NCBI GenBank assembly: GCA_024697225.1
Contig: JAILGA010000150.1
Coordinates: 1-52,626 of the forward strand
Direction: 5' to 3'
DNA: 52,626 nt
From: Lachnospiraceae bacterium
GTDB lineage: Bacteria > Bacillota > Clostridia > Lachnospirales > Lachnospiraceae
Shown here: positions 22 to 49,057 of the stretch, one piece after another
Layout: every line of letters starts with the position of its first letter
Numbering within the stretch: position 1 is the stretch's first letter
Notes under the pieces: model-generated
Database searches by the model: none
Seen by the model: the letters and a program-made list of their open reading frames with translations, nothing else
What the model was told of the DNA's origin: nothing
Translations under genes and position numbers: made by a program

Positions 22-1239
22 GTGAAGGATCGGGGATCATCCAAAAGTAGATTTTCCGCGGTTCACTCCGGGGTATTTCTCCTTGTCTCAACCAAGGTGG
101 TAGGAAACCGGAAAAACCAGATCTACGATGTGGTGAGTACACTGGCGCTTATCGTAAATCTGGCGGCAGGTTTCGCACTGACTTTCGATAGCATGGCGGT
201 GGGCATGGGACCGGCTCTGAAATGGATCGAGGCGGTCACCGTGGCCTTTTTTGCCGTTGATTACCTGATGAGATGCTTCACGGCGGATCTTCTGTACCCT
301 GAGTTGTCAAGTCCGAAGGCTCAGTTAAGATATATGTTTTCATTCAGCGGATTGGTAGACCTGCTGTCGTTTCTTCCGTACTATCTGCCGTTCTTTTTCC
401 CGTCCGGAGCCGCAGCCTTCAGGATGTTCAGGGTTGCCAGGATATTCAGGCTTTTCAGGATAAATGCCTATTATGATTCCCTGAATGTAATAACATATGT
501 TATTGCAAGCAAGAGGCAGCAGCTTTTGTCTTCTTTCTTCATTTTGCTGGTGCTGATGACCGGTTCGAGCCTCTGTATGTATTCTCTTGAACATGAGGCG
601 CAGCCGGATGTGTTTTCTAATGCGTTTTCGGGTATATGGTGGTCGGTGTCTACACTGCTTACCGTCGGGTATGGTGATATTTATCCCGTGACCACTGCCG
701 GAAAGGTGATGGGAATACTTATAACCTTCATGGGCGTCGGTGTGGTGGCGATCCCTACAGGTATCATTTCGGCTGGCTTTGTTGAGCAATATACCCGTGT
801 AAAACGCATCGGTGAAATGGTGGATGAAGACATAAAATTTATTAAAACAGAATTAAAGAAAGGCGATGAATGGTGCGGTAAAGCGATTTCCGAACTTGGG
901 CTTCCGGAGGGTATACTCATTGCGTCAGTACAAAGAAACGGTGAGAACCTGATACCGAGGGGAGATCTGGTATTACAAATGACTGATGTAGTCATTCTTG
1001 CTGCGGATTCTGTGGACGGTGGGAAACCGGTCAACATCAGAGAAGTGATAGTGACCAAAAATCATATCTGGGATGGAGTTTCGATCCGGGACCTTGATAT
1101 ATCGAGACAGACGCTTATAGTAATGGTGAAGAGGGGCGAAAAAAGCATCGTTCCCACAGGAAGTCTTGTTATCAGAAGCGGAGACAGAGTATTTTTATAC
1201 TCCGAGGGAAGGTCGCTGTTTAAATCATTCGATTTCTGA
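22..1239 (+). CDS. Voltage-gated-type potassium channel with two C-terminal TrkA-C-like domains
   Basis: Predicted six-helix plasma-membrane K+ channel. The selectivity filter TVGYGD is at residues 214-219, flanked by a pore helix and the last membrane helix. A voltage-sensor-like S4 segment with regularly spaced arginines is at about 134-146. Hydrophobic segments at about 36-55 and 70-85 fit S1-S2. After the pore, about 285-405 looks like two successive TrkA-C (RCK-C) ligand-binding domains, each with the phrase 'IP-G' followed by a 'GD-V' turn. The annotated start is GTG with no clear ribosome-binding site, and the frame stays open to base 1, so the gene may begin before the window. The gene is convergent with proC, 10 bases away. 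A perfect 16-bp palindrome (489-504) lies inside it. Assignment as a K+ channel is firm; gating ligand is unknown. Confidence 0.9.
   Translation: MKDRGSSKSRFSAVHSGVFLLVSTKVVGNRKNQIYDVVSTLALIVNLAAGFALTFDSMAVGMGPALKWIEAVTVAFFAVDYLMRCFTADLLYPELSSPKAQLRYMFSFSGLVDLLSFLPYYLPFFFPSGAAAFRMFRVARIFRLFRINAYYDSLNVITYVIASKRQQLLSSFFILLVLMTGSSLCMYSLEHEAQPDVFSNAFSGIWWSVSTLLTVGYGDIYPVTTAGKVMGILITFMGVGVVAIPTGIISAGFVEQYTRVKRIGEMVDEDIKFIKTELKKGDEWCGKAISELGLPEGILIASVQRNGENLIPRGDLVLQMTDVVILAADSVDGGKPVNIREVIVTKNHIWDGVSIRDLDISRQTLIVMVKRGEKSIVPTGSLVIRSGDRVFLYSEGRSLFKSFDF
490..503. repeat. Palindrome site ATAWC-N4-GWTAT, intragenic
   Basis: The core is ATAACATATGTTAT. With one base on each side it is a perfect 16-bp palindrome, AATAACATATGTTATT. 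It lies inside the K+ channel gene and is read there as part of the coding sequence. One of 20 exact copies of the motif in this window. Confidence 0.75.
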
Positions 1240-1249
1240 ATCTCGTACC

Positions 1250-2050
1250 TTACTTTTTTTCCATTATCGCATCAATGCTTGCCATACAGGCGGATCTGAG
1301 TCCGTGATCCTCAAGCGCCTGAACCCCTCTTATTGTTGTTCCTGACGGGGAACATACCTGATCCTTGAGGACACCGGGATGAAGACCTGTCTGCTGCTGC
1401 AGCTTTGCAGAGCCGAGAAGCGCCTGAGAGATCAGAGAGTACGCATCCTGTCTGGATATGCCGTATTTTACCGCGGCATCGGCGTATGCTTCAATGAACA
1501 TGTCCGCAAAGGCGGGAAAACAGCCGGTGACTGCACCGCCTATGCCCATGAGGGATGCGGGGAGCTCGTGAACGAGCCCCAGAGGTTTGAGCATGGATAT
1601 CAGAGCCTCCCGCTCATCGTCTCTCAATGTATTTGCAGCTTCGATGAGGAATACTCCTTCACCGACCATTGCGGGCGTGTTGGGCATTATGGTCTGTACC
1701 CTGACGGGGGAGCGAAGATCCGGTATGCCGGAGAGCATTTCGTTATAGCGTTCCAGTGACCATCCTGCAGCCACAGACACCAGAGCTTTTCCGCTGAGCG
1801 AGGATCCGATCCCGGTGAGGGCATCTTCTATCTGATATGGCTTGCAGCAGATGAACAGCATTTCGCAGCCCTCTGCCAGTTCCTTTGATGACGGACACGG
1901 AGTGAAACCGATACTTGCTGCATTCTGTTCCAGTTTTTCGCGATGCGGTGCATAGGCGAAAATGTCCGCCCTGTCAGCGGTACCGGAACTTATAAAGCCC
2001 CGGCACAGCGCCTGAGCCATATTGCCCATACCCAGGAAACCGATTTTCAT
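1250..2050 (-). CDS. proC: Pyrroline-5-carboxylate reductase
   Basis: Catalyses the last step of proline synthesis, NAD(P)H-dependent reduction of 1-pyrroline-5-carboxylate in the cytoplasm. The 266-residue product begins MKIGFLGMGNMAQ, a Rossmann dinucleotide-binding loop, and has the C-terminal family region around 'GSAKLQQQTGLHPGVL' and 'CSPSGTTIRGVQALE' that forms the dimer and active site. An upstream in-frame ATG would add ten residues, but a GGAGGT ribosome-binding site lies 8 bases before this ATG, so the shorter start is chosen. Length matches the family. It is the last gene of a minus-strand run PBP - yfbR-like - proC and ends 10 bases from the convergent K+ channel gene. Confidence 0.95.
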   Translation of the reverse strand: MKIGFLGMGNMAQALCRGFISSGTADRADIFAYAPHREKLEQNAASIGFTPCPSSKELAEGCEMLFICCKPYQIEDALTGIGSSLSGKALVSVAAGWSLERYNEMLSGIPDLRSPVRVQTIMPNTPAMVGEGVFLIEAANTLRDDEREALISMLKPLGLVHELPASLMGIGGAVTGCFPAFADMFIEAYADAAVKYGISRQDAYSLISQALLGSAKLQQQTGLHPGVLKDQVCSPSGTTIRGVQALEDHGLRSACMASIDAIMEKK

Positions 2051-2120
2051 GCAATCATACCTCCGATCCTGTTGATCCACAAAGGATGTTTATCCCGGCC
2101 TGACTCTTTTTCCGTTAAAC

Positions 2121-2723
2121 TTATCCGTTTTTTACAAGTTCATCGAGCGTATTGCCGTATGAGGGGAGAAACTCAATCATGAAGTCTTTTACTTCGGGGA
2201 GTTCTCTGCTCATCCGTTCGATGGATTCTCTTGTGGCATTCTCTGCGGTACGGAATTCAAGATTGCCGGCATCCCTTTCTTCCATGCATTTTATCAGCGC
2301 CGAGAATTTGTCGGCCGCTTTTACAAGCTTTCGCATATATGCATCGTTTTCCTCGCCGCTCTCGAAGAATACCGTGCTGTAGGCACCTCTGAGATCCTCG
2401 GGCAGCATTCTCAGAAGCTGGTCCTCTGCGACGGCTTCCACCTCTTTATATGCCCGCCTCAGATCACTGGTATAATACTTCACCGGTGTTGGCATATCAC
2501 CTGTTATTATTTCTGAAGCATCGTGATAGAGGCCGATAAGGGCAGCTCTGTCGGCGTTGAGATTCTTTCCATAACGGATGTTACCGATCGTACACAGGGC
2601 GTGCGCGATCATGGCAACTTCTAGAGAGTGTTCGCTTAGATTTTCCTGTCTTGCGTTTCTCATCAGCGCCCAGCGGTCGATATATTTCAGGCGCGAAAGG
2701 GTTGCAAAAAATGAGTAGCTCAT
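2121..2723 (-). CDS. yfbR: YfbR-like HD-domain 5'-deoxynucleotidase
   Basis: A 200-residue HD-superfamily phosphohydrolase resembling E. coli YfbR, which dephosphorylates deoxynucleoside 5'-monophosphates. Visible family features are the N-terminal 'RWALMRNARQENLSEHS' segment with metal ligand H32, the HD pair H67-D68 in 'LYHDASEI', and the following 'GDMPTPVKY' loop. The start ATG is 2 bases past the PBP stop codon. A GGGAGG ribosome-binding site six bases upstream overlaps the last PBP codons, so the two genes are very probably translationally coupled. A motif site (2494-2507) lies inside the gene. Substrate preference cannot be read from sequence. Confidence 0.88.
   Translation of the reverse strand: MSYSFFATLSRLKYIDRWALMRNARQENLSEHSLEVAMIAHALCTIGNIRYGKNLNADRAALIGLYHDASEIITGDMPTPVKYYTSDLRRAYKEVEAVAEDQLLRMLPEDLRGAYSTVFFESGEENDAYMRKLVKAADKFSALIKCMEERDAGNLEFRTAENATRESIERMSRELPEVKDFMIEFLPSYGNTLDELVKNG
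2494..2507. repeat. Palindrome site ATAWC-N4-GWTAT, intragenic
   Basis: ATATCACCTGTTAT, inside the yfbR-like gene. Exact match to the window-wide motif. Confidence 0.6.
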
Positions 2724-2725
2724 AA

Positions 2726-5547: not shown

Positions 5548-7053
5548 ATGATTAATCGCAGGACAGTTTTCAAGATATTACTTTTCAGCGCGCTTCTGAC
5601 AGCACTTCTGCTTCTGTGTGCATTTATACTTGAGCGCAAGGAGAGCATCCGCAGGTACGCCGATATGAAGGAGGCGTCAAAGGGTACGGATGTGCTGATC
5701 CTTGGATCCTCTCATGTGATAAACGGCCTGAATCCTGTTGTGATGTACGAGGATAAGGGGATCGCCGCTTATAATCTTGGTGGACACGGGAGCATCATAC
5801 CTGTAAGCTATTATGAGTTCCTTCTTGCTCTCAGGGATTTTGATCCGTCGCTTGTGATCCTTGACGGCTATATGATGGAGAGAGATTATCATTTCCTGGA
5901 CGTGATGACGGATGAATATACGGATGAGAACAGAAAGGACGCCGTCAGCCAGCTGCATTTGTGTCTGGACGCCTTTCCGCTTTGCAGGATCAAGCTGCAT
6001 GCCGTGAGAGATCTGGTCTCGGACAACGGCACGAGACTGAGGCTCCTGTTCCCGTTCATGCTGTATCACAACAGATGGTCATCGCTTTCCGCCGACGATC
6101 TGGTGCCCGCCGGTATGTCCGCACAGGACAACAGACTGCTGGGCGCCCAGATAAGATACGGCCTTGACTGGAGGATAGCGGAACACAGCATGGATACCGG
6201 CGAAGAGGACGAGACCATCAGCGAGGGCGAGCGGTATCTGCAAATGATACTGGCAGCCTGCAGGGAGAGGGACATCAGACTTGCGCTGACATATCTTGCC
6301 TGTAATTCCACCGAAGCGGACAGAAGAGCTGCCGAAAGACTGGGTGTCCTGGCCGCCTCCGAGGGGCTGCCGTATCTGAATATGCTCTCGGATGATCCCA
6401 CTGATATGCGCACGGACTACAGCGACGAAGGGCATCTGAACCTTCTGGGAATGGTCAGGGCGACACGTGCCGTTGAGGAATTCATAGTTCAAAACACTCC
6501 TGTTCCGGACAGAAGAGGCGAAGACGGTTATTCGCTCTGGCAGAGGAGAGCGGAGCAGTACCATTTATCTCTGGATGAGAGACTGCTGGAGGCCGGGAGC
6601 CTTACAGAGGCTCTGCTTATCCTTGGTGCGGATCCCGGACACGCGGATGCGCTTCTGTATATGCCCGGGACCGGAATGGCCTCCGGGGATCCGGCTGTAT
6701 GCAGACTGCTGGATTCGTATGTGCCGGATAACGGTGTGCGGAAGGCACACTGCGATGGCGAACCTTCTTTCGTGGTCATAGGTTCAAATAATAACATGTG
6801 TGATTTTTGCGGATATTCTGTTAATGACCCGACGGACGTTGGCCTCGGTTCCGGAAAGACACTGGAACTGATACAGGTCGAGAATTTCACCGGTGCATAT
6901 CTTGATGGTGATGAATCGGAAAACCTGCTGGATATGGAGGACGGCCGGCTTTCGGATGCACAGCTGGTCCTTTTGGATCCGGACAACGGAGAGGTAAGAA
7001 AACGACTGCTATTTAATTATCCGACAGGGACGGCCCCTGACGAGGAACAATAA
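5548..7053 (+). CDS. Membrane-anchored SGNH/GDSL-fold protein (DltD/AlgX-like)
   Basis: The 501-residue product has one N-terminal membrane helix (about 9-27) followed by an SGNH-hydrolase-like domain facing outward. Block I is 'ILGSSHVINGLNP' with the candidate nucleophile at S54 or S55. A 'GGHG' turn fits block II, and 'DEGHLN' (D293, H296) fits the C-terminal catalytic Asp-His pair. Such proteins usually act with membrane acyltransferases in O-acylation of surface polymers; an MBOAT is encoded at 38.8 kb but not next to this gene. The C-terminal ~150 residues are not recognised. The start has no ribosome-binding site; see the promoter. mntP follows after 8 bases. Confidence 0.75.
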   Translation: MINRRTVFKILLFSALLTALLLLCAFILERKESIRRYADMKEASKGTDVLILGSSHVINGLNPVVMYEDKGIAAYNLGGHGSIIPVSYYEFLLALRDFDPSLVILDGYMMERDYHFLDVMTDEYTDENRKDAVSQLHLCLDAFPLCRIKLHAVRDLVSDNGTRLRLLFPFMLYHNRWSSLSADDLVPAGMSAQDNRLLGAQIRYGLDWRIAEHSMDTGEEDETISEGERYLQMILAACRERDIRLALTYLACNSTEADRRAAERLGVLAASEGLPYLNMLSDDPTDMRTDYSDEGHLNLLGMVRATRAVEEFIVQNTPVPDRRGEDGYSLWQRRAEQYHLSLDERLLEAGSLTEALLILGADPGHADALLYMPGTGMASGDPAVCRLLDSYVPDNGVRKAHCDGEPSFVVIGSNNNMCDFCGYSVNDPTDVGLGSGKTLELIQVENFTGAYLDGDESENLLDMEDGRLSDAQLVLLDPDNGEVRKRLLFNYPTGTAPDEEQ

Positions 7054-7063
7054 CACACGTTAT
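7050..7063. repeat. Palindrome site overlapping the mntP start codon
   Basis: ATAACACACGTTAT. Its last bases are the AT of the mntP ATG (7062-7064). It also sits in the 8-base gap after the SGNH gene. Confidence 0.7.
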
Positions 7064-7694
7064 GGAAATGCTTCTATTCACAGTTAACAGCGTGGCTTTG
7101 GGAATCGGCCTTGCGATGGATGCTTTCTCGGTGTCCATTACTAACGGCTTGAGAGAACCGGGAATGAAAAGAAAACGCATGTTATTTATTTCCGGAACGT
7201 ATGCGTTTTTTCAGTTTATCATGCCGGTGACCGGCTGGTTCCTGGTAAGGAGAGCAACAGATGTCTTTTCGTTCCTGGAGCCTGCTATTCCGTGGACGGC
7301 GCTGATACTGCTTAGTGTGATAGGCGGCAAGATGTTTGCGGAGGGTATCGCACAGATCATCAGGGACCGGAATATGGCTGAAGCGGGAGAGGATAAGGAC
7401 ACAGAAGAAGGTGCGGAAGGATTTAAGCCGGTGAGTCTGTCGGAGCTTGCGGGACAGGGCGTAGCCACTGCGATAGATGCACTGTCCGTGGGGCTTACAA
7501 CAGAAAAGTATTCTTTGCCGGCGGCTTTTGGATCGGCGCTCATCATAGCGGCAGTCACCTGGGTGATATGTATGGCGGGCCTTAAGCTGGGCAAGATGTT
7601 TGGCATGAAGCTGGCACACAGGGGAGCCGTTGTCGGGGGTGCGATCCTTGTGGGGATAGGCGTGGAGATCTTTGTCAGAGGTGTATTCTTATGA
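7062..7694 (+). CDS. mntP: Manganese efflux pump MntP
   Basis: Six-helix inner-membrane exporter of Mn2+ of the MntP (DUF204) family. The two internally repeated signature motifs are visible: 'GLAMDAFSVSI' near residues 16-26, with D20, and 'ATAIDALSVGL' near 136-146. They contribute the acidic residues needed for transport in characterised members. A charged cytoplasmic loop (about 105-120, rich in Glu and Asp) separates the two halves. Length is slightly above the usual ~190. The start codon lies inside a palindromic site, and GAGGA is 15 bases upstream, which is long; ATG at 7068 is an alternative. No yybP-type manganese riboswitch is present, since the gene follows its neighbour after 8 bases. 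Confidence 0.93.
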   Translation: MEMLLFTVNSVALGIGLAMDAFSVSITNGLREPGMKRKRMLFISGTYAFFQFIMPVTGWFLVRRATDVFSFLEPAIPWTALILLSVIGGKMFAEGIAQIIRDRNMAEAGEDKDTEEGAEGFKPVSLSELAGQGVATAIDALSVGLTTEKYSLPAAFGSALIIAAVTWVICMAGLKLGKMFGMKLAHRGAVVGGAILVGIGVEIFVRGVFL

Positions 7695-9817: not shown

Positions 9818-10450
9818 ATGAGCGGACAGCATCCGGCATATAATACGGTCGCGATTCCCGGAAGCGGTGAGATCACTGAGAAAAAGTCGAGGTTTATCGG
9901 CGATATACTGCCTGTGAGTTCCGAAAAGGAGGTACAGGAGCACATAGCCTCGATAAAAAAGAGATACTATGATGCAAGACATCACTGCTACGCTTTTTCC
10001 ATCGGCCCGGGATGTGAGCTGGTAAGGTCAAGCGACGACGGCGAACCCTCAGGTACAGCGGGAAGACCCATCATGTCGGTCCTGACCGGTGCCGGTCTGA
10101 CGGATACCCTGATCGTAGTCACCAGGTACTTCGGTGGAACGCTCCTCGGAGCCGGGGGGCTGGTGAGAGCATATACGCAGGCTGCCCAGGAGGCACTAAA
10201 GGCCGCAAAGGTAGTCCGGGCAGAGTGGTGTACCGATCTTGAGGTCACGGTCGACTACAGTCTGGTAACGCCCGTTCAGAGATTTTTTGAGCTAAATGCC
10301 ATAGCTTTGGATGGGAGCGTTTATGATGATAAGGCACATTTTTCAATACATATAATAACAGACGATATTGAAAAAGTGTCAGCTTCTCTTGTGAGCCTGA
10401 CGGAGGGAAGGGCAGTAATAGACCGGGGGGGCGAGGGATATCGCCGATAA
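9818..10450 (+). CDS. yigZ: YigZ/IMPACT family protein
   Basis: 210-residue member of the YigZ (UPF0029, IMPACT) family, conserved proteins of uncertain function proposed to bind nucleic acid or ribosomes. The N-terminal domain shows the signature 'KKSRFIGDI', 'DARHHCYAF', 'DDGEPSGTAGRPIM' and 'VTRYFGGTLLGAGGLVRAY'. The smaller ferredoxin-like C-terminal domain follows from about 140. Length is typical. There is no strong ribosome-binding site before the ATG. A motif site lies near the 3' end. Confidence 0.92.
   Translation: MSGQHPAYNTVAIPGSGEITEKKSRFIGDILPVSSEKEVQEHIASIKKRYYDARHHCYAFSIGPGCELVRSSDDGEPSGTAGRPIMSVLTGAGLTDTLIVVTRYFGGTLLGAGGLVRAYTQAAQEALKAAKVVRAEWCTDLEVTVDYSLVTPVQRFFELNAIALDGSVYDDKAHFSIHIITDDIEKVSASLVSLTEGRAVIDRGGEGYRR
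10355..10368. repeat. Palindrome site ATAWC-N4-GWTAT, intragenic
   Basis: ATAACAGACGATAT in the 3' part of the yigZ gene. Flanking bases (ATATA before, TGAA after) resemble those at 24502 and 25709. Confidence 0.65.
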
Positions 10451-13400: not shown

Positions 13401-15808
13401 TTCCGAGCCTTATACGCACCGAGGCGGATGAAGTGACTTATTCCATGCATATTATCATCAGATATGAGCTTGAGAAGAGGCTCTTTGCGGGCGAGCTCTC
13501 CACTGAGGAGCTTCCCGGGGCGTGGAACGAACTCTACATGAAATATCTCGGGATATGCCCAAAGAACGACGCCGAGGGAGTTCTTCAGGATGTTCACTGG
13601 ACCAGCGACTTCGGGTATTTCCCCACATATCTTCTGGGAAATCTTTACGGAGCCATGTACTATGAGGTCATGAGGGAGGATATCGACGTCGAGGCTGCGG
13701 TGCGCAGCGGAAATATCGGGGTCGTAAACGCCTGGATGAAGGAGAAAGTGTTTGAGAAGGCAGACAGGCTTTCCCCGGATGAGTGGATAAGACAGATCAC
13801 GGGAAGGGATATCTCGGCAGATTCATTTATAGAGTATATTGAGGAAAAGTATTCGGGGATCTATGATCTTGGCAGTGTCAGAACCGGTACAAGCCGCTCC
13901 TTTGACGGATATGTGCGGCGCATGATCCGTATAAGGCAGCTGTCGTCCCCGCAGCTCGGACTTGTGAACACAGCGGATGCATACAGGCTGACACTGTCTG
14001 AAAACTTCAGGAATATCGGTGAGCTTGCGGGAGAAAACAGACGGCTGCTTAAGGAAGTGATAGATCCGATCCTCTCCAGTGATGAGCTTCTCTCTGACAG
14101 CACGGTCGAGCAGCTTAAGTCCCTCAACGCCAATCTGATGGATGCCTGGGCCATGGACAATGTGGATCTCCCCGTGATGGCGCAGCTGTCGGAGCGGTTG
14201 AAAAAGGATGCGATGGCAAAGGGCGATGACGATTATCTGGTCAGACAGCTGGATGAGGAGATTGTCGCCTGTTATGCTCTGATAGTACAGACCAGGCGCA
14301 TAATCACCAGACCTGAGATCACCGACTCCGTGAGGAAACGGGGTGTGGATGCGCTGGACAGGCTTCTGTCCTATCTGGATAAGGATAAATATCTGAAACT
14401 GTCGATGGAGAGCAGGGAACTTGTCATGATCAACTCCCGCTACGGCATCGGCATGTTCCATACCATGCTTCCGCTGTCCAAAGCGGAAAGAAGACGCAGA
14501 ATGAAGCTTCTTGAGACCTCGATGTCACTGGCCGACGATCCGTGGTATCAGAAGGCTCTTCCCGACTATGACTGGGATTATCACAGATACCGTATACATA
14601 TGTATTACTCTGAACTCGATGAGTACGGGAACTGTGCGGGAAATGATGAAAAGGAGCTGGCTGTCATTGCCGATCACGGAGAAAAAGCGGAGGAGATATG
14701 GCTCTCCGACAGTAAGAAGTATGAGAAACTTGACAAATATTCAAATATACATGCTCACGTGATGAGAAACAGGCTGCATGCCGGGCGGATCTCCGGGGAG
14801 GAGTACAGGAAGCTTCTGCTGGAGGTCTACGAGAAGAGAGATGCATCCCGCTATGATGTGGATTCGATCGTGGACAATATTGAGTTTCCCAGGGAGTATA
14901 TAGCTGCGCTTGACAGGGATGCGATGACTGAGGAGCAGAGAAATATCGTCGGGGGCATGTATGAGTCGGTTTTATCCTACATCTTCGACATGCCCAAGCT
15001 GGGAGTCTTTTATGAGCTTCTGGATTACTTTGCCTCACTAATATTCAATTTTATCGAGATACCCGGCGGAATGACATTTGAAGAGATGTCGCTGAAGGCC
15101 TTTGCTGCCTTTCATCCCCCCACCTACATTCATTCAATGATGGTGGCGGCGATCACCAGAAGGCTCACGATACATCTCCTCTCAAAGAAACCGGAGCTCT
15201 TTGTCGGGATGCCGGGCATAACTACCGTGGCAGAGGCCGTAAAGAAGGCACCGGAAATAGAGGAGTATGCCTATCATGCGGCGTTGTGCCACGATTTCGG
15301 GAAGCTCCTGATAATAGATACGATCTTTGTCTACGGAAGAAAGATTCTGGATTTTGAATTTGACATCATCAAGCAGCACCCGGAGCTGGGCGCGGTCCTG
15401 ATGGAGCGCTACGACTCGACCAGGGAATATGCTGATATCGCCAGAGGGCATCATATATGGTACAACAAAGAGGGCGGCTACCCCTCCGGTTTCGATCTGT
15501 CCGCGAGTCCGTATAAGACGGTTACGGATATAGTTGCCTGCGCCGACTGTATGGATGCGGCAACGGATGTGATAGGAAGAAGCTACAGAAAAGGTAAGTC
15601 TCTCGAGGAATTTATCAGCGAGCTTGAGGAGGGTGCCGGAACGCGGTACGCCCCGTGGCTTGTGGAACTGGTAAGGGATGAGGAGGTGCTTTCGGATCTT
15701 CGGTTCATCCTCACAAAGGGGCGGGAGGAGAACTACCGGAACGCTTATATACTGCTGAAAGAGGTCAAGGAGAGAGACAGCGGTCTATTCATATATGACA
15801 GACTTTGA
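10463..15808 (+). CDS. Giant fusion: HD module - M32 carboxypeptidase - HD module
   Basis: One uninterrupted 1781-codon frame, start GTG with AGAGG eight bases upstream. Residues ~1-640 are a helical region ending in an HD-type phosphohydrolase domain: 'LLHDFGKM' (H463-D464), then 'YHHVYYDKSGGYP', a variant of the HD-GYP signature, and 'ADSIDAATDP'. Residues ~640-1140 match M32 (carboxypeptidase Taq) metallopeptidases: HETGH at 902-906, 'GMHESVSRFYEN', and the C-terminal 'QDVHWTSDFGYFPTYLLGN'. Residues ~1150-1781 repeat the first module: H1610-D1611 in 'LCHDFGKL', 'HHIWYNKEGGYP', 'ADCMDAATDV'. Both HD units also share 'DDPWY', 'DYDW' and 'FIEIPGG/VMTF' phrases. Catalytic residues appear intact in all three. 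Partner and substrate are unknown. M32 enzymes are normally about 500 residues and stand alone. Confidence 0.85.
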   Translation: MKLSTLENRLDEYAAYSAEISRLSLLRPDSDMAEACGRIRELGDRNRRILSEVLYPLIDQREHISRAYADALRDFCENITSDNFGSEIDLMLAFRISDKLVGEYAFLGDMDAVAIQINKHVMICYSVVNMISRMSGSEELAEKYMSEGLSAADIACEIVRDKKMFLELGDEARNKMLRTVRFYPALYDMSFGDKTTNTVRIEAYKSALELADDPWYRENVNDYDWTMHRVRCIEHMGQLTERGNRWGVTGSQCEEICGFIDSIKDDWESDAYVRELLPKSHYLLIKYRNYYYAGRMDGNAYREKLKLLYESFEGNAYDLYGVQENLLLPAEYLFSLAGTKPGAEEEDRIRRIYFSVSEYILKSADSDTLNLLKEYLIAFLDAFIEIPGVMTFYEMAVRSIAVLHTRTYVHSFMTAALTRNLANHLIRTSPGLFTGLCGTKNDEEVKQKKSEIMKLAYRCGLLHDFGKMIIIDTLTVYNRDLMKDEESIIKLHPVYAFLVLDRHGSTKDVARVALYHHVYYDKSGGYPVDLPPIPEGEKTLADMVAVADSIDAATDPTGVCFREVKSLEDILGELKKGAGSRYAPWVKDLADKEDFLCDVRWLIRNGRADAGLEGGRILKSVLENARGQRSGDKDADIVKIHALLEEEERYKRMAKIIRNDMETACPKAAMDSQGELAALLENSAFKIRNSDEYKNLLSRILLKYDELPEWDRAMAGHLRRNRLIEKNITPEAALEFSLIEKKAYLSWQDAVERSDYGIFEKDLSDVIKINREKCRLRELEPAERSRLHCDYDMLLDLFERGMSEDKLDPLFESCARRLSGIINNIGKSKKKIRTDFLSRPVPEYKQKMVSEYLMDVLGLDRTRGALAYSIHAYSEMMGKNDVRIVSYILPGSFISNIYSVIHETGHALFELLQPVENFDNHITGAKTLGMHESVSRFYENILGRSEAFIDLIFPKLKELMPEALHDVTAREFYEAVNLVVPSLIRTEADEVTYSMHIIIRYELEKRLFAGELSTEELPGAWNELYMKYLGICPKNDAEGVLQDVHWTSDFGYFPTYLLGNLYGAMYYEVMREDIDVEAAVRSGNIGVVNAWMKEKVFEKADRLSPDEWIRQITGRDISADSFIEYIEEKYSGIYDLGSVRTGTSRSFDGYVRRMIRIRQLSSPQLGLVNTADAYRLTLSENFRNIGELAGENRRLLKEVIDPILSSDELLSDSTVEQLKSLNANLMDAWAMDNVDLPVMAQLSERLKKDAMAKGDDDYLVRQLDEEIVACYALIVQTRRIITRPEITDSVRKRGVDALDRLLSYLDKDKYLKLSMESRELVMINSRYGIGMFHTMLPLSKAERRRRMKLLETSMSLADDPWYQKALPDYDWDYHRYRIHMYYSELDEYGNCAGNDEKELAVIADHGEKAEEIWLSDSKKYEKLDKYSNIHAHVMRNRLHAGRISGEEYRKLLLEVYEKRDASRYDVDSIVDNIEFPREYIAALDRDAMTEEQRNIVGGMYESVLSYIFDMPKLGVFYELLDYFASLIFNFIEIPGGMTFEEMSLKAFAAFHPPTYIHSMMVAAITRRLTIHLLSKKPELFVGMPGITTVAEAVKKAPEIEEYAYHAALCHDFGKLLIIDTIFVYGRKILDFEFDIIKQHPELGAVLMERYDSTREYADIARGHHIWYNKEGGYPSGFDLSASPYKTVTDIVACADCMDAATDVIGRSYRKGKSLEEFISELEEGAGTRYAPWLVELVRDEEVLSDLRFILTKGREENYRNAYILLKEVKERDSGLFIYDRL

Positions 15809-17755: not shown

Positions 17756-17950
17756 ATAACAAGTGTTATAATAGCGCAAAATGCGAGTTTCATTCAATAA
17801 CATACGATATTATTGCCACATCCACACAAACATAACATATGATATCGATAAAACGAGGCAGCAGACGTCTTTAATAACACGTGGTATTTTATGAAATCCG
17901 CTGATCATGGGATTGTAAAGCCCGCCATATAATAAAATATCATTTGCTAC
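17756..17950. repeat. Cluster of palindrome sites in the typA upstream gap
   Basis: Three exact copies of ATAWC-N4-GWTAT at 17756-17769, 17797-17810 and 17832-17845, plus two imperfect ones at 17874-17887 (GGTAT right arm) and 17937-17950 (GCTAC right arm). Start-to-start spacings are 41, 35, 42 and 63 bases. The region is AT-rich and otherwise empty. Confidence 0.75.
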
Positions 17951-19431: not shown

Positions 19432-20157
19432 TTGAAAACGATCGATCTGGCACAGGAAATTGGAAGACTTGAATATCCGGGGCGGGGCATTGTGCTCGGG
19501 CTCTCGGCCGACGGGAAAAACGCAGCGATAGCATACTTCATCATGGGCAGAAGCGTCAACAGCAGAAACAGGATTTTTGTCACGGAGAATGACGGGATCA
19601 GGACGGAGGCATTTGATCCCGCGCTCCTTGAGGATCCAAGTCTCATAATCTATGCTCCCGTGAGAACGCTCGGGAATTATACGGTCGTCACGAACGGCGA
19701 TCAGACAGATACGATAATCGATGGTCTGGATGCTCAGATGACATGGGCGGAGGCTTTGTCCACCAGAGAGTTTGAGCCCGATAAACCCAATTACACACCC
19801 AGGATCTCGGGGCTTGTACATGTGACAGGAGCAAGGCTTGATTACCAGCTCTCAATCCTGAAATCCGGGGATATGGATCCCGCAACCTGCCAGAGGTTCT
19901 ATTTCTCATATACATGCCCGAAGGCCGGTGAAGGACATTATATCCACACCTATGCGGGCGGCCTTGATGAGAACGGGGCGCTGTTAAGCTTCGAGGGTGA
20001 ACCCGTGCCTGTCACCATCGGCAATGATCCCGATGCATTTGCCGAAACCATATGGAATTCCCTTAATGAGGACAACAAGGTTTCGCTTTTCACACGCTTT
20101 ATCGATCTGGAGACCGGAAAAGCGGTCTCAAAGATATACAATAAAAATATCAAGTGA
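19432..20157 (+). CDS. purO: Stand-alone IMP cyclohydrolase (PurO-type)
   Basis: Predicted to close the ring of FAICAR to IMP, the final step of de novo purine synthesis. 241 residues resembling the single-domain IMP cyclohydrolase family first known as archaeal PurO: N-terminal 'GRGIVLGLSADGKNAAIAYFIMGRS', 'SRNRIF', 'ALLEDPSLIIYAPVR', 'TNGDQTDTI' and 'YTPRISG'. It is unrelated to the MGS-like cyclohydrolase domain of ordinary PurH. The start is TTG, supported by GGGAGG seven bases upstream; the nearby ATG runs into a stop at once. The gene for the preceding step follows 35 bases downstream. The stop codon lies inside the first of three tandem palindromes. Confidence 0.88.
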   Translation: MKTIDLAQEIGRLEYPGRGIVLGLSADGKNAAIAYFIMGRSVNSRNRIFVTENDGIRTEAFDPALLEDPSLIIYAPVRTLGNYTVVTNGDQTDTIIDGLDAQMTWAEALSTREFEPDKPNYTPRISGLVHVTGARLDYQLSILKSGDMDPATCQRFYFSYTCPKAGEGHYIHTYAGGLDENGALLSFEGEPVPVTIGNDPDAFAETIWNSLNEDNKVSLFTRFIDLETGKAVSKIYNKNIK

Positions 20158-20190
20158 TATAATAACAAACGATATAATAACAGGAGGTAT
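20147..20190. repeat. Three tandem palindrome sites, 15-bp period, covering a ribosome-binding site
   Basis: Sites at 20147-20160 (ATATC AAGT GATAT), 20162-20175 (ATAAC AAAC GATAT) and 20177-20190 (ATAAC AGGA GGTAT, one mismatch). Each starts 15 bases after the previous one, with a single A between. The third contains the AGGAGG ribosome-binding site of the next gene; the first contains the stop codon of the previous one. Confidence 0.85.
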
Positions 20191-27900: not shown

Positions 27901-28735
27901 TGCGGGAACCGGCGCAGGAGAATATGGCTGCAGTGAACTGCTTGACGCGGCACGAAGTAAAAATATCAACAGTTATCTAATGAACAGGATCACAGAAAGA
28001 CTGGATGAGAAATATGCACATCCGGAGCTTGAGAAGTTGGAAATAAAAACAACTGTTACCGAATTAAAGGAAAGATCACTCGAAGAGGAAGAAGATAAAC
28101 TCCACACCCATCGACTCATACAGTCAACGGAAGAGGGTGATATCGTACCTGATTTCATGAGAGAAACCAGGATCATGAAGAAAACAGAAAGAGGAACAGC
28201 CTACCATAAGGTGATGGAAATTTTGGACGCAGAAATACTAGAAGATGACAGTATCACAAATCGTGATTTGATTAATAAAAATCGAAATATCGTTCAAAAA
28301 TGGATGAAAAATAAAGAAGAATCCGGATTACTCTCGAAAGGTTATTCGAATGCTGTCAGAGCAGAGGATGTACTGGTGTTTTTGTCTTCGGATCTGGGAC
28401 AAAGGATGCGGGAGGCGTTTCTTATGGACAGATTGTTCAGGGAGAAACAGTTCATGATGGAAATCCCGGCGGCAAGAGTGACAAGAGATGCGCCGGAGAA
28501 TGGCACAACGCTGATTCAGGGTGTGATAGACGCATATTTCGTCTCCGGTGAGGGTGCCGTAGAGTTGGTGGATTACAAGACGGATGCCGGGGTCGATGAT
28601 GAAGAACTTGTAAAAAGATACGGCGTACAGCTTTCACTGTACGCCGAGGCGATCGAACGCATACTTGATCTAAAGGTGAAGGAAAAATGGATCTGGTCCT
28701 TTACGCTGGGACATGCGATTCCTCTTCCAAAATGA
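24935..28735 (+). CDS. addA: ATP-dependent helicase/nuclease subunit A (AddA)
   Basis: UvrD-type 3'-5' helicase plus nuclease, partner of AddB. 1266 residues. Motif I AAAGSGKT at 29-36, 'VVTFTRAAAAQMKERI' (Ia), 'MVDEYQDSN' (motif II, D412-E413), 'VGDIKQSIYRFRLARPEIF' (III), 'IMSIHKSKGLEFPVVF' (V) and 'LYVAMTRAEQKLIL' (VI). The C-terminal nuclease has 'VELVDYKTD' (D1213, K1215). The start overlaps addB by eight bases. The 3' end overlaps the convergent thiN end by 35 bases. Three exact palindrome sites are inside. A stretch at about 27955-28335 is markedly AT-rich with A-ending codons, unlike the rest of the gene. Confidence 0.96.
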   Translation: MAEKKKKIRFTEEQKEVIESRRQNLLVSAAAGSGKTAVLTERIIRLVSDGDEPADIDRILVVTFTRAAAAQMKERISAALSARIADDPGNRHLRRQELLLPHARIMTIDAFCQYILRNEFDAAGIDPSFRVADDGEIELLKNEAVGEILEEEYEKATPEFLELADAMSPGALDKALETQIKRLGGFAESMPWPELWLRKERDKLAGTARRGLVECAGNEWITDVIKRTEKELACCIDELTAAMRISESPDGPYMYTDTITADIENLKHIYTAGDLKELGERFRTDIFGKLSSRRDDAVSPGKRAEVKDIRDNVKDTVNKIKSRYFSAPYDEMEQREHMTVPVLTELIEVTLKYRKRLEEKKREKSVIDFSDMEHLALGVFLKEPEDPEDIDEPEITDIARSYAEYFTEIMVDEYQDSNFVQELILGAIAGESAGRHDRFMVGDIKQSIYRFRLARPEIFMDKLGRYHRDPGFSDRRIDLHRNFRSSGQIIDFVNAIFRGIMLRDVGGVDYDEDAMLVAGEGAGPGLPDNIPEIMLLDLNSGGDSDDRQGGAADTDGPDNEPDGQDDELLTQDMSKEEAEASMIAGRILELVSTGTLEDKNGGVRRVRWGDIVILLRATSGVDEIYRNVLDAAGIPVYIESRKGYFQAREIRLMLDLMRVIVNPLSDIPLAGVLRSAPFGGFDDEELALVRVFGMRSGNLPAGVGLYECLSACASGASPVLNGIPAFAESGIDDALSQKCIGFLDRLDSWREAAGWLSVRELLDNIIEETRFEEYVAALPGGARRSANVRILLGWADNMAMSVGAGLTDFMNRVEQYRLIDVDQGEANVLPENADVVRIMSIHKSKGLEFPVVFAAGLSRNFNRQDERSAVLLDDIIGPAIYAFDRENRVRYSTLKRLAVADKQREESLGEEIRVLYVAMTRAEQKLILTAAEKDISKWADMAAGKVPVSYLKRAHASCFLDLIREAAKSCPGLFRLTCVRKDEISTYETAGTGAGEYGCSELLDAARSKNINSYLMNRITERLDEKYAHPELEKLEIKTTVTELKERSLEEEEDKLHTHRLIQSTEEGDIVPDFMRETRIMKKTERGTAYHKVMEILDAEILEDDSITNRDLINKNRNIVQKWMKNKEESGLLSKGYSNAVRAEDVLVFLSSDLGQRMREAFLMDRLFREKQFMMEIPAARVTRDAPENGTTLIQGVIDAYFVSGEGAVELVDYKTDAGVDDEELVKRYGVQLSLYAEAIERILDLKVKEKWIWSFTLGHAIPLPK
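25595..25608. repeat. Palindrome site ATAWC-N4-GWTAT in addA
   Basis: ATAACAGATGTTAT; 16 bp including flanking G and C form GATAACAGATGTTATC, symmetric except at the centre. Confidence 0.65.
25709..25722. repeat. Palindrome site with extended flanks in addA
   Basis: ATAACAGCCGATAT with the same GATACA / TGAA-type flanks as the addB site at 24502. Confidence 0.7.
27963..27976. repeat. Palindrome site ATAWC-N4-GWTAT in addA
   Basis: ATATCAACAGTTAT, at the start of the AT-rich stretch of addA. Confidence 0.6.
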
Positions 28736-30216: not shown

Positions 30217-30240
30217 ATTAAATATCGCGCGATATTTAAT
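30217..30240. repeat. Perfect 24-bp palindrome between riboswitch and thiT hairpin
   Basis: Symmetric sequence with arms ATTAAATATC / GATATTTAAT around GCGC. It contains an exact ATAWC-N4-GWTAT core at 30222-30235. As RNA it can form a 10-bp stem with a four-base loop, directly between the aptamer and the ribosome-binding-site hairpin. Confidence 0.8.
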
Positions 30241-30352
30241 CCGCCTCCCTACGCCGGTATTATCCGGTTCAGGTGATAAGGGTCTGGCAGCGGGCAAATA
30301 TCCTTAATTAAGAAAGCCCTAAAAACCGCCATCTCAGCGACGCTCCCCTGGC
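30241..30352 (-). promoter_or_regulatory. TPP riboswitch aptamer
   Basis: Read on the minus strand it has the conserved THI-box elements in order: GGGGAGC at the 5' end, GCTGAGATGGCGG, a variable P3 region, then ACCTGAACCGGATAATACC and GGCGTAGGGA at the 3' end. It lies 65 bases before the thiT ATG and is expected to lower expression of thiT-thiN when thiamine pyrophosphate is abundant. Confidence 0.95.
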
Positions 30353-30383
30353 AAAAATTAAGTTATGATTTGATAAAATACCA

Positions 30384-30407
30384 AAACGCACGTTATTTTA
30401 TGCGTTT
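30384..30407 (-). terminator. Possible weak terminator after asnA
   Basis: Minus strand: seven-base arms AAACGCA and TGCGTTT around a ten-base loop, 9 bases after the asnA stop, followed by TGGTATTTTAT. The stem is short and the T run interrupted. It also contains an imperfect copy of the window motif (30383-30396). Confidence 0.35.
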
Positions 30408-34072: not shown

Positions 34073-34086
34073 ATAACACCGGTTAT
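34073..34086. repeat. Palindrome site ATAWC-N4-GWTAT, intergenic
   Basis: ATAACACCGGTTAT, 37 bases after the nuclease-helicase stop codon. Confidence 0.65.
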
Positions 34087-34394: not shown

Positions 34395-34408
34395 ATAACG
34401 CATGATAT
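34395..34408. repeat. Palindrome site ATAWC-N4-GWTAT, intergenic
   Basis: ATAACGCATGATAT, about 110 bases before valS, with the ATACA left flank also seen at 24502 and 25709. Confidence 0.65.
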
Positions 34409-42128: not shown

Positions 42129-43273
42129 GAAGAGCCGCGGTTAAAACTTTTGCGGCTATGATGCTTGCCGTCACGCTCTCCGGCTGTACGCTGCCGGAGA
42201 TCTTCGGGGTCAATGAGGAGAACGCGCTGAACGCGGGTCTGACGGCGCTTGAGAATCTTGAGTTCAGGGATGCTCTCTCAAGCTTTTCCCTTGCCGAGTC
42301 GCAGGGAGAGGACACGGTGGCGCTGTATCGCGGAAAGGGCATCGCGGAGTATAACCTGGCGGATTATGAGGCCGCAGGGAAGGATTTTGCCACAGCTCTT
42401 GACAGGTGCAACGGCATACCGGATGAGACCACCTATGATATAGCATACTATTATGCCCAGTCGCTGGTGAATCTTGAGAAATATGACGAGGCGGCGGCGG
42501 TATATGATGCGATCCTGGGCTTAAGATCCGGCGAAGACCAGGCCAGATATCTCAGGGGGCTGTGCTATCTGAACATGGGCGAGCACGACAAGGCATCCGA
42601 GGACTTTAAGACGGTAGTGGATGCGGTCCCCCGTAATTATGACAGGATATTTTCCATATATGATGCGCTGTGCAGGGCGGGTTATAAGCCGGAAGCCGAC
42701 AGCATGCTGAACGACATAATGAGTGTCAGCGGTACGACCATGACTTCGTATGAGAAAGGCCGTCTCTTCTATTATCTCGGAGACAAGGAAAAAGCGAGAA
42801 CCTCGCTTGAGGAAGCGCTTGGCGAAAGCGCCGATAAAAAGTCATCCGAAAAAATACCGATTGTTATTTTATTAGGAGAGGTTGTTCAGGATCTCGGCGA
42901 TGACGAATATGCCATAAGTGTGTACCGGCGCTTTCTGCAGGATGACCAGAGTGAGGCCTGCATTTACAATGCGCTTGGCGTGTGTGAGATCAGGATGGGG
43001 AGTTATGCGGATGCCGTGTCCGATCTGCAGATAGGACTGGCGCTCGATGATCCGGAACAGAACGCCGCGCTTTTGAGAAATCTTATCGTCGCTTATGAAA
43101 ACATAGGAAATTATGATATCGCTGCCCAGAGGATGAGCGAGTATCTGGAGCTTGTACCCGGTGATGAAGAAGCAAGGAGGGAGAATATTTTCCTTTCCAC
43201 GCGTCTTTTGCAGAGCGGGGAACCCGAGGTGGATGACGCCGAGGGTGTGACTGACGCGGAAACATCTGACTGA
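42125..43273 (+). CDS. TPR-containing lipoprotein
   Basis: 382 residues with a lipoprotein signal: positive N-terminus, hydrophobic stretch, lipobox LSGC with lipidated C21. The mature part is a chain of TPR units (e.g. 'ALYRGKGIAEYNLADYEAA', 'ARYLRGLCYLNMGEHDKA', 'YNALGVCEIRMGSYADA') with an acidic C-terminal tail. Predicted to sit on the outer face of the membrane as a binding scaffold. ATGA overlap with ridA. A near-match to the window palindrome (42854-42867, ATACC left arm) lies inside. Confidence 0.85.
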   Translation: MRRAAVKTFAAMMLAVTLSGCTLPEIFGVNEENALNAGLTALENLEFRDALSSFSLAESQGEDTVALYRGKGIAEYNLADYEAAGKDFATALDRCNGIPDETTYDIAYYYAQSLVNLEKYDEAAAVYDAILGLRSGEDQARYLRGLCYLNMGEHDKASEDFKTVVDAVPRNYDRIFSIYDALCRAGYKPEADSMLNDIMSVSGTTMTSYEKGRLFYYLGDKEKARTSLEEALGESADKKSSEKIPIVILLGEVVQDLGDDEYAISVYRRFLQDDQSEACIYNALGVCEIRMGSYADAVSDLQIGLALDDPEQNAALLRNLIVAYENIGNYDIAAQRMSEYLELVPGDEEARRENIFLSTRLLQSGEPEVDDAEGVTDAETSD

Positions 43274-44730: not shown

Positions 44731-44795
44731 GAGGCGCTTATCAGAAAAAAAACATAGTTGATCTGTTTCACATCGGCAAAGGAGGTTGACCCCGG

Positions 44796-45731: not shown

Positions 45732-45752
45732 CAGAGCGCGGGCGGATATAGG

Positions 45753-45780
45753 ATAACAATTGTTACATAACAGAGGATAT
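45753..45780. repeat. Tandem pair of palindrome sites at the pyrE ribosome-binding site
   Basis: 45753-45766 (ATAAC AATT GTTAC, one mismatch) directly abuts 45767-45780 (ATAAC AGAG GATAT, exact). The second includes the AGAGG likely used as pyrE ribosome-binding site. pyrE starts six bases on. Confidence 0.75.
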
Positions 45781-45785
45781 TAAAT

Positions 45786-46463: not shown

Positions 46464-46484
46464 CGCGGGAGTTTCCGATCAGAT

Positions 46485-46829: not shown

Positions 46830-46836
46830 AATGCCG

Positions 46837-46867
46837 GTCTGATCCGGCGCCCGACAACCGGTCAGAC
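46837..46867 (+). other. Stable hairpin in the purE leader
   Basis: GTCTGA, one bulged T, CCGG, a ten-base loop, CCGG, TCAGAC: ten base pairs. It begins eight bases after the preceding stop codon and ends about 30 bases before the purE ATG. No T run follows, so it is more likely an mRNA structure or processing site than a terminator. No known purine riboswitch elements are seen. Confidence 0.55.
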
Positions 46868-46898
46868 TGATCACGCAGCAAGCAAAGGAGGTAGAGTT

Positions 46899-47408
46899 AT
46901 GCCAATGGTTGGGATAGTTATGGGATCGGATTCCGATATGCCGGTCATGGCCAAGGCCGCCAAGGTCCTTGAGGATCTGGGGGTAAGCTTTGACATGAGG
47001 ATAATATCCGCGCACAGGGAACCGGAGGAGTTTTTTGAATATGCAAAGAGCGCGGAGGAAGCGGGCTATAAGGTGATCATAGCCGGCGCAGGCATGGCGG
47101 CGCATCTGCCGGGTATGTGTGCCGCGATCTTTCCGCTGCCGGTGATAGGAGTGCCGATGAAGACCACCGCTCTCGGGGGCAGGGATTCGCTTTATTCCAT
47201 AGTCCAGATGCCTGGCGGTGTTCCGGTTGCCACGGTCGCCATCGACGGAGGCGAAAACGCGGGCATACTTGCCGCAAAGATACTCGCAGTCAACGATCAG
47301 GCTCTGCTCGACAAGCTTAAGAAGAGGAGCGCCGAAATGAAGGAGACCGTGTCGCTCAAGGATGCAAGACTCACGGGAGTGGGTTACAGAGAATACATGA
47401 AGGGATAG
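46899..47408 (+). CDS. purE: 5-(Carboxyamino)imidazole ribonucleotide mutase
   Basis: 169 residues, PurE family. 'IVMGSDSDMPVM' and 'IISAHREPEEFFEYA' form the nucleotide-binding site, followed by 'IIAGAGMAAHLPGM' and 'GGRDSLYSIVQMPGGVPVATV'-type sequence (in part). It interconverts carboxylated forms of aminoimidazole ribonucleotide; no purK is in the window, so direct CO2 use cannot be excluded. AAAGGAGG is about eight bases before the ATG. First gene of the purE-M-N-D run. Confidence 0.97.
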   Translation: MPMVGIVMGSDSDMPVMAKAAKVLEDLGVSFDMRIISAHREPEEFFEYAKSAEEAGYKVIIAGAGMAAHLPGMCAAIFPLPVIGVPMKTTALGGRDSLYSIVQMPGGVPVATVAIDGGENAGILAAKILAVNDQALLDKLKKRSAEMKETVSLKDARLTGVGYREYMKG

Positions 47409-47420
47409 GAGGAGGCAATT

Positions 47421-48455
47421 ATGGCAATGGATTACAGATCCTCGGGAGTCGACATCGAAGCGGGCTATGAGTCCGTGGAGAGGATCCGCTCTCATGTGGC
47501 TGCGACGCTTCGGCCTGAGGTCATGGGCGGCATCGGCGGTTTCTCGGGCGCTTTTGATATATCTAAACTGAAGGACCTCGATGATCCGGTGCTCCTGTCC
47601 GGAACGGACGGAGTCGGAACGAAGCTCAAGCTGGCATTTATCCTTGATAAGCATGACACCATTGGCATCGACTGCGTCGCAATGTGTGTCAACGATGTGG
47701 CCTGCGCCGGCGGCGAGCCGCTGTTTTTCCTGGATTACATAGCCTGCGGCAAAAATGAGCCCGCCAAGATCGAACAGATCGTGGCAGGTGTCGCCGAGGG
47801 CTGCAAACAGGCGGGCTGCGCTCTTGTGGGCGGGGAAACCGCCGAGCATCCGGGACTTATGCCTGATGATGAATACGATCTTGCCGGGTTTACCGTGGGA
47901 GCCTGCGACAAAAAGGATCTGATAGACGGGAACTCCATCGCGCCGGGCGACGTGCTGATCGGTGCCTTTTCGTCGGGGGTTCATTCAAACGGTTTTTCAC
48001 TTGTCAGAAAAGTCTTTCCGATGACAAAGGAGAGACTTGAGACAAGAGAGGATAAGCTTGGCGGCAGGACACTCGGAGAGGTGCTTCTTGCACCCACTAA
48101 AATATATGTTAAGATGCTTAAGAAATTAAAGAGCTCGGGCATAGTATTAAAGGGTGTCAGCCACATAACCGGCGGCGGTTTCTACGAGAATATACCCCGC
48201 ATGCTCCCTGAGGGAGTTAAGGCAGTGGTCAGAAAGGACAGCTACGAGGTTCCCGCCATATTCGGAATGATAGCAGAGGCCGGAGATGTTGCGGAAAAAG
48301 TCATGTACAACACCTACAACATGGGAATAGGAATGGTACTTGCAGTCAGACCCGATGACGCCCCGCGCGCCCTCGAGGCGATAAGGAGTTCGGGTGAGGA
48401 CGGCGCCGTGATAGGAAGTATAGAGGCCGGAGACAAAGGAGTGGAACTTATATGA
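47421..48455 (+). CDS. purM: Phosphoribosylformylglycinamidine cyclo-ligase (AIR synthetase)
   Basis: Closes the imidazole ring of FGAM using ATP. 344 residues. Family blocks: '[18 protein letters not shown]', '[15 protein letters not shown]', '[20 protein letters not shown]', '[13 protein letters not shown]', '[13 protein letters not shown]', '[18 protein letters not shown]'. A ribosome-binding site (AGGAGG) precedes the ATG. It overlaps purN by four bases (ATGA). Confidence 0.98.
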
Positions 48456-49057
48456 ACGCGGTAGTGCTGGTGTCCGGCGGAGGCACGAACCTCCAGGCGA
48501 TCATTGACCGGATCGCCGACGGAACGATACATAATACTAAAATAACAGCTGTTATTTCAAATAACGCCGGTGCGGGTGCACTTATGAGGGCGGAGAAGGC
48601 AGGGATTCCTGCAGAGGTGGTTTCGCCTTCGGATTTTGAAGACAGAGAGAAGTTTAACATGGCGCTCCTTGAGAAGGTGGAGTCCTATGCTCCGGATCTC
48701 GTGGTTCTGGCCGGATTTCTTGTGAACATACCGCCTGCGATGGTGAAGAGATTTGCCGGGCGGATAATCAACATACACCCTTCGCTGATACCGTCCTTCT
48801 GCGGAAAAGGGTTTTACGGACTGAGGGTTCATGAGGCTGCGCTTAAGCGCGGCGTAAAGGTCACCGGTGCAACGGTCCATTTTGTCGATGAGGGAACGGA
48901 CACCGGGCCGATAATTCTTCAGAAAGCCGTGGAGGTAAAGGACGGCGACACTCCTGAGGTGCTTCAGAGGCGCGTCATGGAGGAAGCGGAGTGGAAGATA
49001 CTCCCCGGAGCCATCGACATGATCGCAACGGGTCGGATAAGCATTGGCAAAGCCTGA
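48452..49057 (+). CDS. purN: Phosphoribosylglycinamide formyltransferase
   Basis: Formylates GAR with 10-formyl-THF. 201 residues. '[13 protein letters not shown]' binds phosphate; '[17 protein letters not shown]' holds the catalytic Asn-His pair; '[19 protein letters not shown]' carries the catalytic Asp. 'VISNN' is encoded by the right end of a perfect palindrome (48541-48556). The start overlaps the purM stop; purD follows after 15 bases. Confidence 0.98.
48542..48555. repeat. Palindrome site ATAWC-N4-GWTAT, intragenic
   Basis: ATAACAGCTGTTAT; with one base on each side a perfect 16-bp palindrome, AATAACAGCTGTTATT. It lies inside purN. Confidence 0.75.

Follow-up and report, generated by a model that had tools for sequence, protein, structure and literature searches.

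Regionally clustered palindromes in Lachnospiraceae genomes as candidate sites of a putative domain-marking DNA-binding protein

Contig JAILGA010000150.1 of a Lachnospiraceae bacterium, analysed over its entire length of 52,626 bases (hereafter the window; contig C49 of the source genome, G000), raises the question of why one short palindrome, ATAWC-N4-GWTAT (pattern ATAWCNNNNGWTAT), recurs so often within it. The window holds 21 exact matches, compared with a mean of 0.20 and a largest count of 2 in 100 dinucleotide-preserving shuffles. A sequence-only reading of this DNA had called the motif over-represented on the strength of 20 listed starts; every one of them is an exact match, the excess is upheld, and one further site (13543) had been overlooked. 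The explanation we favour, at a probability of about 0.5, is that the palindromes are sites of a putative homodimeric, sequence-specific DNA-binding protein that would mark one chromosomal domain, in the manner of matS/MatP or ram/RacA. It draws on regional clustering of the sites, selection on their position at the DNA level both inside and between genes, independent half-sites, tandem packing at 15 bp and separation from the contigs that carry soj and parS, all of which were observed directly.

The G000 assembly (2.81 Mb in 165 contigs, completeness judged 89%) contains 61 exact sites, against five for a control pattern read backwards, and 21 of the 61 lie on the window, which makes up 1.9% of the assembly and would hold 1.14 sites if they were spread uniformly (P about 1e-19). 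A genome-wide element comparable to HIP1, one of the explanations put forward from the sequence alone, is not supported by this distribution and was rejected on the regional clustering. Seven more exact sites are found on G000 contig C143. Its right end corresponds to the genes that adjoin those of C49 on the left in contig C109 of a close relative, G015. Contigs C37, C41, C146 and C58 carry one to three sites each, and their genes map together with those of C49 into contig C13 of the more distant genome G022, so that part of the remaining sites belongs to the region of C49. In G000, G015 and a second close relative, G034, all three of them fragmented and incomplete metagenome-assembled genomes, the site-rich contigs carry purL-carAB, a malic enzyme gene, a family-2 glycosidase gene, a polysaccharide locus, purH-addAB-valS and purEMND; where these genes have homologues on G022 C13, the homologues fall at about 21–107 kb of that contig. 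For genes beyond the window, Pfam is the basis of the names carB, purL, malic enzyme, family-2 glycosidase, MATE, HU and TetR, and other names were given by eye. The polysaccharide-type locus, also named by eye, is common to G000 C143 and G015 C114 and has many sites, with pairs at 15 bp in both.

The region syntenic to the window is likewise rich in sites in both close relatives, whose purH-like proteins are 83% (G015) and 82% (G034) identical to that of G000. G015 has 69 exact sites against one for the backwards pattern, and a narrower A-led pattern gave 26 forward and 38 reverse matches in G034 against none backwards. Contigs for density counts with a position weight matrix (PWM) were mostly picked for holding sites, and their densities are not those of a random sample. 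Site positions were compared in 20 aligned segments covering 19 PWM sites of G000: a site stood in the same column in G015 for 11, in G034 for 13, in either for 14 and in both for 10, while shifting the alignment by 6–60 columns left 0.21 sites matched in either relative; the PWM had been trained partly on the sites so compared. The five sites not conserved in this comparison were 20147, 22270, 34073, 45753 and 45767. With exact sites alone (n = 13), 10 were conserved in either relative and six in both.

Conservation of this kind might follow from the encoded proteins. At eight coding loci, selected because the site is common to at least two species, the site is kept in 14 of 16 copies in the relatives, and for those 14 the summed chance of finding a site, given the protein, is ∼1.3; for three of them (both copies at addA 774 and one at addA 3028) that chance is 0.22–0.47. 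The N4 centre has changed between species at most conserved loci. Single sites thus persist at orthologous positions in diverged genes with mostly different centres, which disfavours the selfish palindrome that had also been suggested. A comparison with background models and with sister genomes had been proposed as the way to check the motif: enrichment and position hold in the close relatives, and most other genomes of the genus have few sites.

Within the window, 11 sites lie fully inside coding sequences (CDSs) and 10 do not, two of the latter overlapping a CDS end. As the sequence-only reading had stated, both coding and intergenic DNA are used, with non-coding DNA over-represented given its share of 5.5% by our own gene calls. 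It had also held that protein sequence does not explain the sites, and this stands: synonymous shuffling yields 1.39 CDS sites on average (1000 runs, maximum 6) against the 11 observed, and the coding sites are spread over all three reading frames. Protein constraint alone was rejected on these shuffles together with the per-locus chances given the protein. The genes concerned are unrelated in function, and further intragenic sites occur in the purL, carB and malic enzyme genes of G034 and G015. Exact sites and near-consensus sites of the window are as follows (strand '.' in every row; alignments refer to sites at the same place in the named relatives).

490..503, exact site in the ion-channel gene (pattern match and CDS calls)
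2494..2507, exact site in the yfbR-like gene; the yfbR-like open reading frame (ORF) of G015 C109 likewise holds a site
2571..2584, near-consensus site in the yfbR-like gene (PWM 13.4)
6791..6804, near-consensus site (PWM 19.8)
7050..7063, exact site on the boundary preceding the mntP-like gene (pattern match)
7172..7185, near-consensus site in the mntP-like gene (PWM 16.9)
10355..10368, exact site in the UPF0029 gene (pattern match and CDS calls)
13543..13556, exact site overlooked earlier, with centre TCGG and a PWM score <13
17756..17769, exact site, unit 1 of 4 in the intergenic array from typA to the TPR gene
17797..17810, exact site in the typA/TPR array (pattern match)
17832..17845, exact site in the typA/TPR array (pattern match)
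17874..17887, near-consensus site, unit 4 of the typA/TPR array (PWM)
20147..20160, exact site, unit 1 of the 15-bp-period array before the purH-like gene; no site in that column in the relatives
20162..20175, exact site, unit 2 of the array before the purH-like gene; aligned in G015 and G034
20177..20190, near-consensus site, unit 3 of that array, over the likely ribosome-binding site; aligned in G015 and G034
22008..22021, exact site in addB coding sequence; aligned in G015 and G034
22270..22283, near-consensus site in addB (PWM 18.5); aligned in G034 in one of two alignments
23158..23171, near-consensus site in addB; aligned in G015 and G034
23733..23746, exact site in addB; aligned in G034 only
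24502..24515, exact site in addB; aligned in G015 and G034
25595..25608, exact site in addA; aligned in G034 only
25709..25722, exact site in addA; aligned in G015 and G034
27963..27976, exact site in addA; aligned in G015 and G034
30222..30235, exact site beside the thiT-like start, over the 3' end of a thiamin pyrophosphate (TPP) riboswitch; aligned in G034
30383..30396, near-consensus site in the asnA/thiT-like interval; aligned in G015 and G034
34073..34086, exact site in the dinG-like/valS interval; not conserved
34395..34408, exact site 5' of valS; aligned in G015
42854..42867, near-consensus site in a TPR gene; aligned in G015 and G034
45753..45766, near-consensus site 5' of pyrE (PWM 13.1); not conserved
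45767..45780, exact site immediately 5' of pyrE; unaligned in G015 and G034
48542..48555, exact site in purN coding sequence; aligned in G015 and G034
50395..50408, near-consensus site after purD (PWM 15.4)

The form of the motif speaks to how it would be read. On the plus strand the centre is A-led in 18 of the 21 window sites, in keeping with the earlier description, and it ends in C or T in 17. A fuller motif reads ATAWC-RNNY-GWTAT with A/T-rich flanks; nine site-rich contigs from three genomes supplied the 72 exact sites behind it, with strands pooled, and its core is fixed by the selection of sites. The W positions are complementary in 34 of 82 sites and non-complementary in 48; since they do not pair, the half-sites appear to be read independently as DNA rather than as an RNA stem, and the stem was ruled out on this ground. 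In a set of 127 PWM sites from eleven contigs, neighbours stand 15 bp apart 12 times, and spacings of 27–35 bp also recur. The arrays with 15-bp spacing adjoin genes of unrelated function. One of them fills the short spacer between the co-directional purO and purH-like genes, with three units in 15-bp steps in all three species, two of which share alignment columns across them. Its units start at the following positions.

G000 window, 20147, 20162 and 20177
G015 C5, 3941, 3956 and 3971
G034 C186, 30121, 30136 and 30151

Independent half-sites, conservation irrespective of coding status or gene function, and restriction to one region together point to a homodimeric protein marking a stretch of chromosome. 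Such a putative protein would bind the palindromes with high affinity and thereby mark the domain; it may load at them, and once loaded it could bridge or coat the domain, which would then be folded, tethered or segregated, much as by MatP on matS or RacA on ram. A chromosome-organising protein had been among the candidates of the sequence-only reading, and it is probably the one that best fits the clustering, the positions kept in and between unrelated genes, and the tandem arrays.

How far the motif extends was surveyed in 36 other genomes of the genus with the form ATAWCANNYGWTAT, for which forward counts range from 2 to 47 and forward controls from 0 to 6. G015 ranks first (47 vs 0) and G034 second (25 vs 0), followed by G029, G022 and G004, and most others have 2–15. 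On G022 C13, largely collinear with other species' contigs that are taken as chromosomal, nine strong PWM sites were counted against 0.83 under a second-order Markov model; two chromid-like contigs of the same genome, C14 and C35, have 12 against 0.50 and six against 0.33, and account for nine of its 23 listed sites. G004 contig C3 (271 kb) has an origin-type skew switch, ParA with a small partner and a Rep3 initiator, and holds 15 of the 22 listed places of that genome. We infer that C3 is a chromid-like replicon; chromids are known in Butyrivibrio, according to an extract of PMC6249431. The skew switch of C3, at 166–173 kb (L160–L172), lies among an HU gene, the gene for the small ParA partner, ParA, AT-rich TATATGTTATATAA repeats, the Rep3 initiator and a DUF815 ATPase; the origin repeats were considered as copies of the same motif and rejected, their TATATGTTATATAA-like sequence being different. 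Samples of other G004 contigs gave four strong sites against 0.67 (C2) and two against 0.00 (C16), so that G004 is not bare beyond C3.

A family-wide survey took in 149 more genomes, each representing one genus. Enrichment is strong in G124 (104 vs 2) and G151 (112 vs 9) and mild in G105, G144, G086 and some others, and most are near control. Two G086 contigs chosen for their listed sites (C32 and C36) hold 12 strong sites against 0.00 in 70 kb, in local clusters at unrelated genes. The six short G124 contigs mapped hold no site. A scan of viral contigs for two units at 15-bp spacing returned one contig piece, whose genes, judged by eye, resemble unrelated phage genes. Among the literature hits listed, none treats the motif in Lachnospiraceae, and five motif spellings gave no paper in the open-licence library searched.

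Several observations count against a domain-marking protein. The G004 contig with the purH homologue holds none of the 22 listed places, though 20 kb of it contain two strong PWM sites. In G019 and G024 some of the gene order is shared, but there is little or no enrichment (strong PWM sites 2 vs 1.5 and 4 vs 1.33, respectively, in 200 kb sampled from each), and the G019 purH locus is mid-replichore by skew, about 0.8 Mb from the skew switch and not at origin or terminus; all ten 20-kb samples of the 626-kb G024 contig have a single skew sign. G151 is rich in sites, yet the 200 kb read show no local cluster, with seven exact sites, six of them in ORFs, and five strong PWM sites against 2.0. Some of the 10 window sites not fully within CDSs stand beside promoters or start codons, as operators do. 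No binding protein was found.

The alternative we rank next, because non-coding DNA is over-used and some arrays precede genes, is a global transcription factor of Crp/Fnr-, LexA- or TetR-like type that may use the 5-N4-5 palindromes as its operators, many of them lying in one region through gene-order history. We regard this as possible and less probable than domain marking. The arrays that separate typA from the TPR gene and precede the purH-like gene would suit it, as would a group of four sites in front of a family-2 glycosidase gene in G034. The layout is also near the PrfA box, TTAACANNTGTTAA, and the Gram-positive LexA box, making a Crp/Fnr- or LexA-like reader a lead only; a further lead is the possible binding of a TetR-family protein whose gene adjoins purL on the upstream side in G022 and G034 and lies ∼11 kb upstream of it in G015. 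Operators would hardly account for the sites deep inside addA, addB and purN that are conserved in position, for those within purL, carB and malic enzyme genes of the relatives, or for the mixed functions of the site-bearing genes, and the purO-purH array is packed into the short gap separating two genes that run in the same direction. Much less probable is a replicon tag, in which the palindromes would be maintenance sites of a Butyrivibrio-type chromid and the chromosomal block would carry them through DNA exchange or coupling between chromid and chromosome. The share of listed sites on G004 C3 and on G022 C14 and C35 speaks for it, as does a MATE gene beside the hbs-par genes of C3, whose counterparts on G015 C5 and G034 C186, both site-rich, are 62–64% identical to it. 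Against it, C3 is a chromid by inference, its Rep3 protein having its best PLSDB matches in Butyrivibrio proteoclasticus plasmids (62% and 53%), and its origin repeats are not the palindrome; G000, G015 and G034, all incomplete, gave no Rep3 match, and in an AAA_31 search none of them had more than one strong ParA (a single hit above 230 bits in each of G015 and G034, all others at most 52 bits). G022 C13 is largely collinear with contigs taken as chromosomal, and G019 and G024 carry a Rep3 gene, their whole-genome counts being 7 and 9 sites.

A variant that joins both ideas, more doubtful still, has one protein marking a chromosomal domain and a chromid by the same palindrome and so coupling the replicons (co-segregation, tethering or replication timing); G000, G015 and G034, in which chromid replication genes were not found, would then keep the tag as a chromosomal domain. 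A mutational, selfish or methylation-driven palindrome like HIP1 would account for a short palindrome in many copies, but it is highly improbable, being largely excluded by the way single sites keep their orthologous positions while most centres change, and by their regional distribution. Least credible are conserved protein motifs or RNA hairpins behind the sites. Coding sites with recurring peptides such as TITxDIE (site chance given protein 0.31–0.47) and the overlap of site 30222 with the end of the TPP riboswitch would each fit locally, and the set as a whole is left unexplained in view of the synonymous shuffles, the three reading frames and the lack of covariation at W.

The surroundings of the sites are those of an ordinary core chromosome, as far as gene content tells. 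Pfam annotations in the window cover an ion channel, proC-like and yfbR-like genes, a penicillin-binding protein, mntP, typA, purO/purH-like genes, addB, addA, thiamin genes, asnA, a dinG-like helicase, valS, pyrF, pyrE, purE, purM, purN and purD, and none among them is of a mobile-element or prophage family. The nearest named records to addA in one scan were two Butyrivibrio and one unclassified Lachnospiraceae, at 34–41% identity, from which G000 is probably a Butyrivibrio-like Lachnospiraceae. Of the 26 two-kb blocks, 25 show positive GC skew and one a value of −0.002, with no clear switch. The window has further features of its own.

7691-9808, a protein whose start resembles a cyclic-nucleotide domain by eye, with no Pfam match even at E 10
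10463-15808, a single open frame of 1781 aa with an M32 carboxypeptidase domain and an HD domain, an unusual fusion
30229-30359, a TPP riboswitch 5' of the thiT-like gene, its 3' end overlapped by site 30222
40493-40695, a tandem repeat of a 21-bp unit in 9.7 copies within a GDSL-lipase-like gene
52314-52626, a 63-bp unit five times in tandem, each with an inverted repeat (CGCCACAATT...AATTGTGGCG), the array reaching the contig end

To our knowledge, domain-marking DNA sites come from few bacteria and lie chiefly near the origin or terminus. A dense set with conserved positions, lying away from both and also present on a chromid, would indicate that a major family of gut and rumen bacteria has a chromosome-organising protein not yet described, and the motif is a direct bait for finding the protein that binds it. 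The packing of sites in one stretch, and their conservation at the same spots in related species even within genes, suggests that a putative protein uses the palindrome to mark and organise that stretch of the chromosome.

Among known systems, HIP1 of cyanobacteria is likewise a short over-represented palindrome, but it is genome-wide where the present sites are regional. PrfA and Crp/Fnr sites share the 14-bp, 5-N4-5 layout, and the PrfA box and ATAACANNTGTTAT are the same except for the outermost base of each half. Known sites of that kind are promoter operators; here about half of the sites are intragenic, and the set is regional. The consensus sites of ParB and Noc, parS (TGTTTCAC-GTGAAACA) and NBS (TATTTCCC-GGGAAATA; an extract of PMC7383237), are palindromic nucleation sites too, and their half-site letters partly agree with RATAWCRN, whereas the centre is degenerate here. 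The window has no parS within three mismatches and one NBS-like match with two mismatches, and canonical parS and NBS were rejected on this comparison. Copies of parS with 0–2 mismatches adjoin soj in G015 and G034, and the 3.5–4.3-kb loci at soj (G015 and G034) and dnaA (G015) contain no exact site; Spo0J is therefore an unlikely binder. C258, which carries soj and parS in G034, has no entry among that genome's 64 listed A-led matches; in G015, soj and dnaA are on C121. A ParB-family search found none in G000, which is incomplete, and one, of Spo0J type, in G015, with no second hit there that could be a Noc paralogue.

The closer likenesses are to sites that mark domains. In the Gram-positive Bacillus subtilis, ram sites of RacA are dense in one region near the origin, with others elsewhere (extract of PMC6593407). 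The present set resembles them in having a dense region plus sites elsewhere on the chromosome; a difference is that the ram sequence is GC-rich. The sequence of matS is GTGACRNYGTCAC, from which the consensus here differs. In the Escherichia coli Ter macrodomain, the 13-bp matS occurs 23 times in 800 kb, as given in an extract of PMC3330122. Compared with matS/MatP, the palindrome has another sequence, a higher density and tandem arrays. The matS domain surrounds the terminus; here the window has no clear skew switch, and in G019, a genome that lacks the enrichment, the purH locus is ∼0.8 Mb from the skew switch. By sequence, then, the set is neither matS, parS nor NBS and is filed under none of them; in its distribution it is like matS, a short motif repeated across, and concentrated in, one chromosomal domain.

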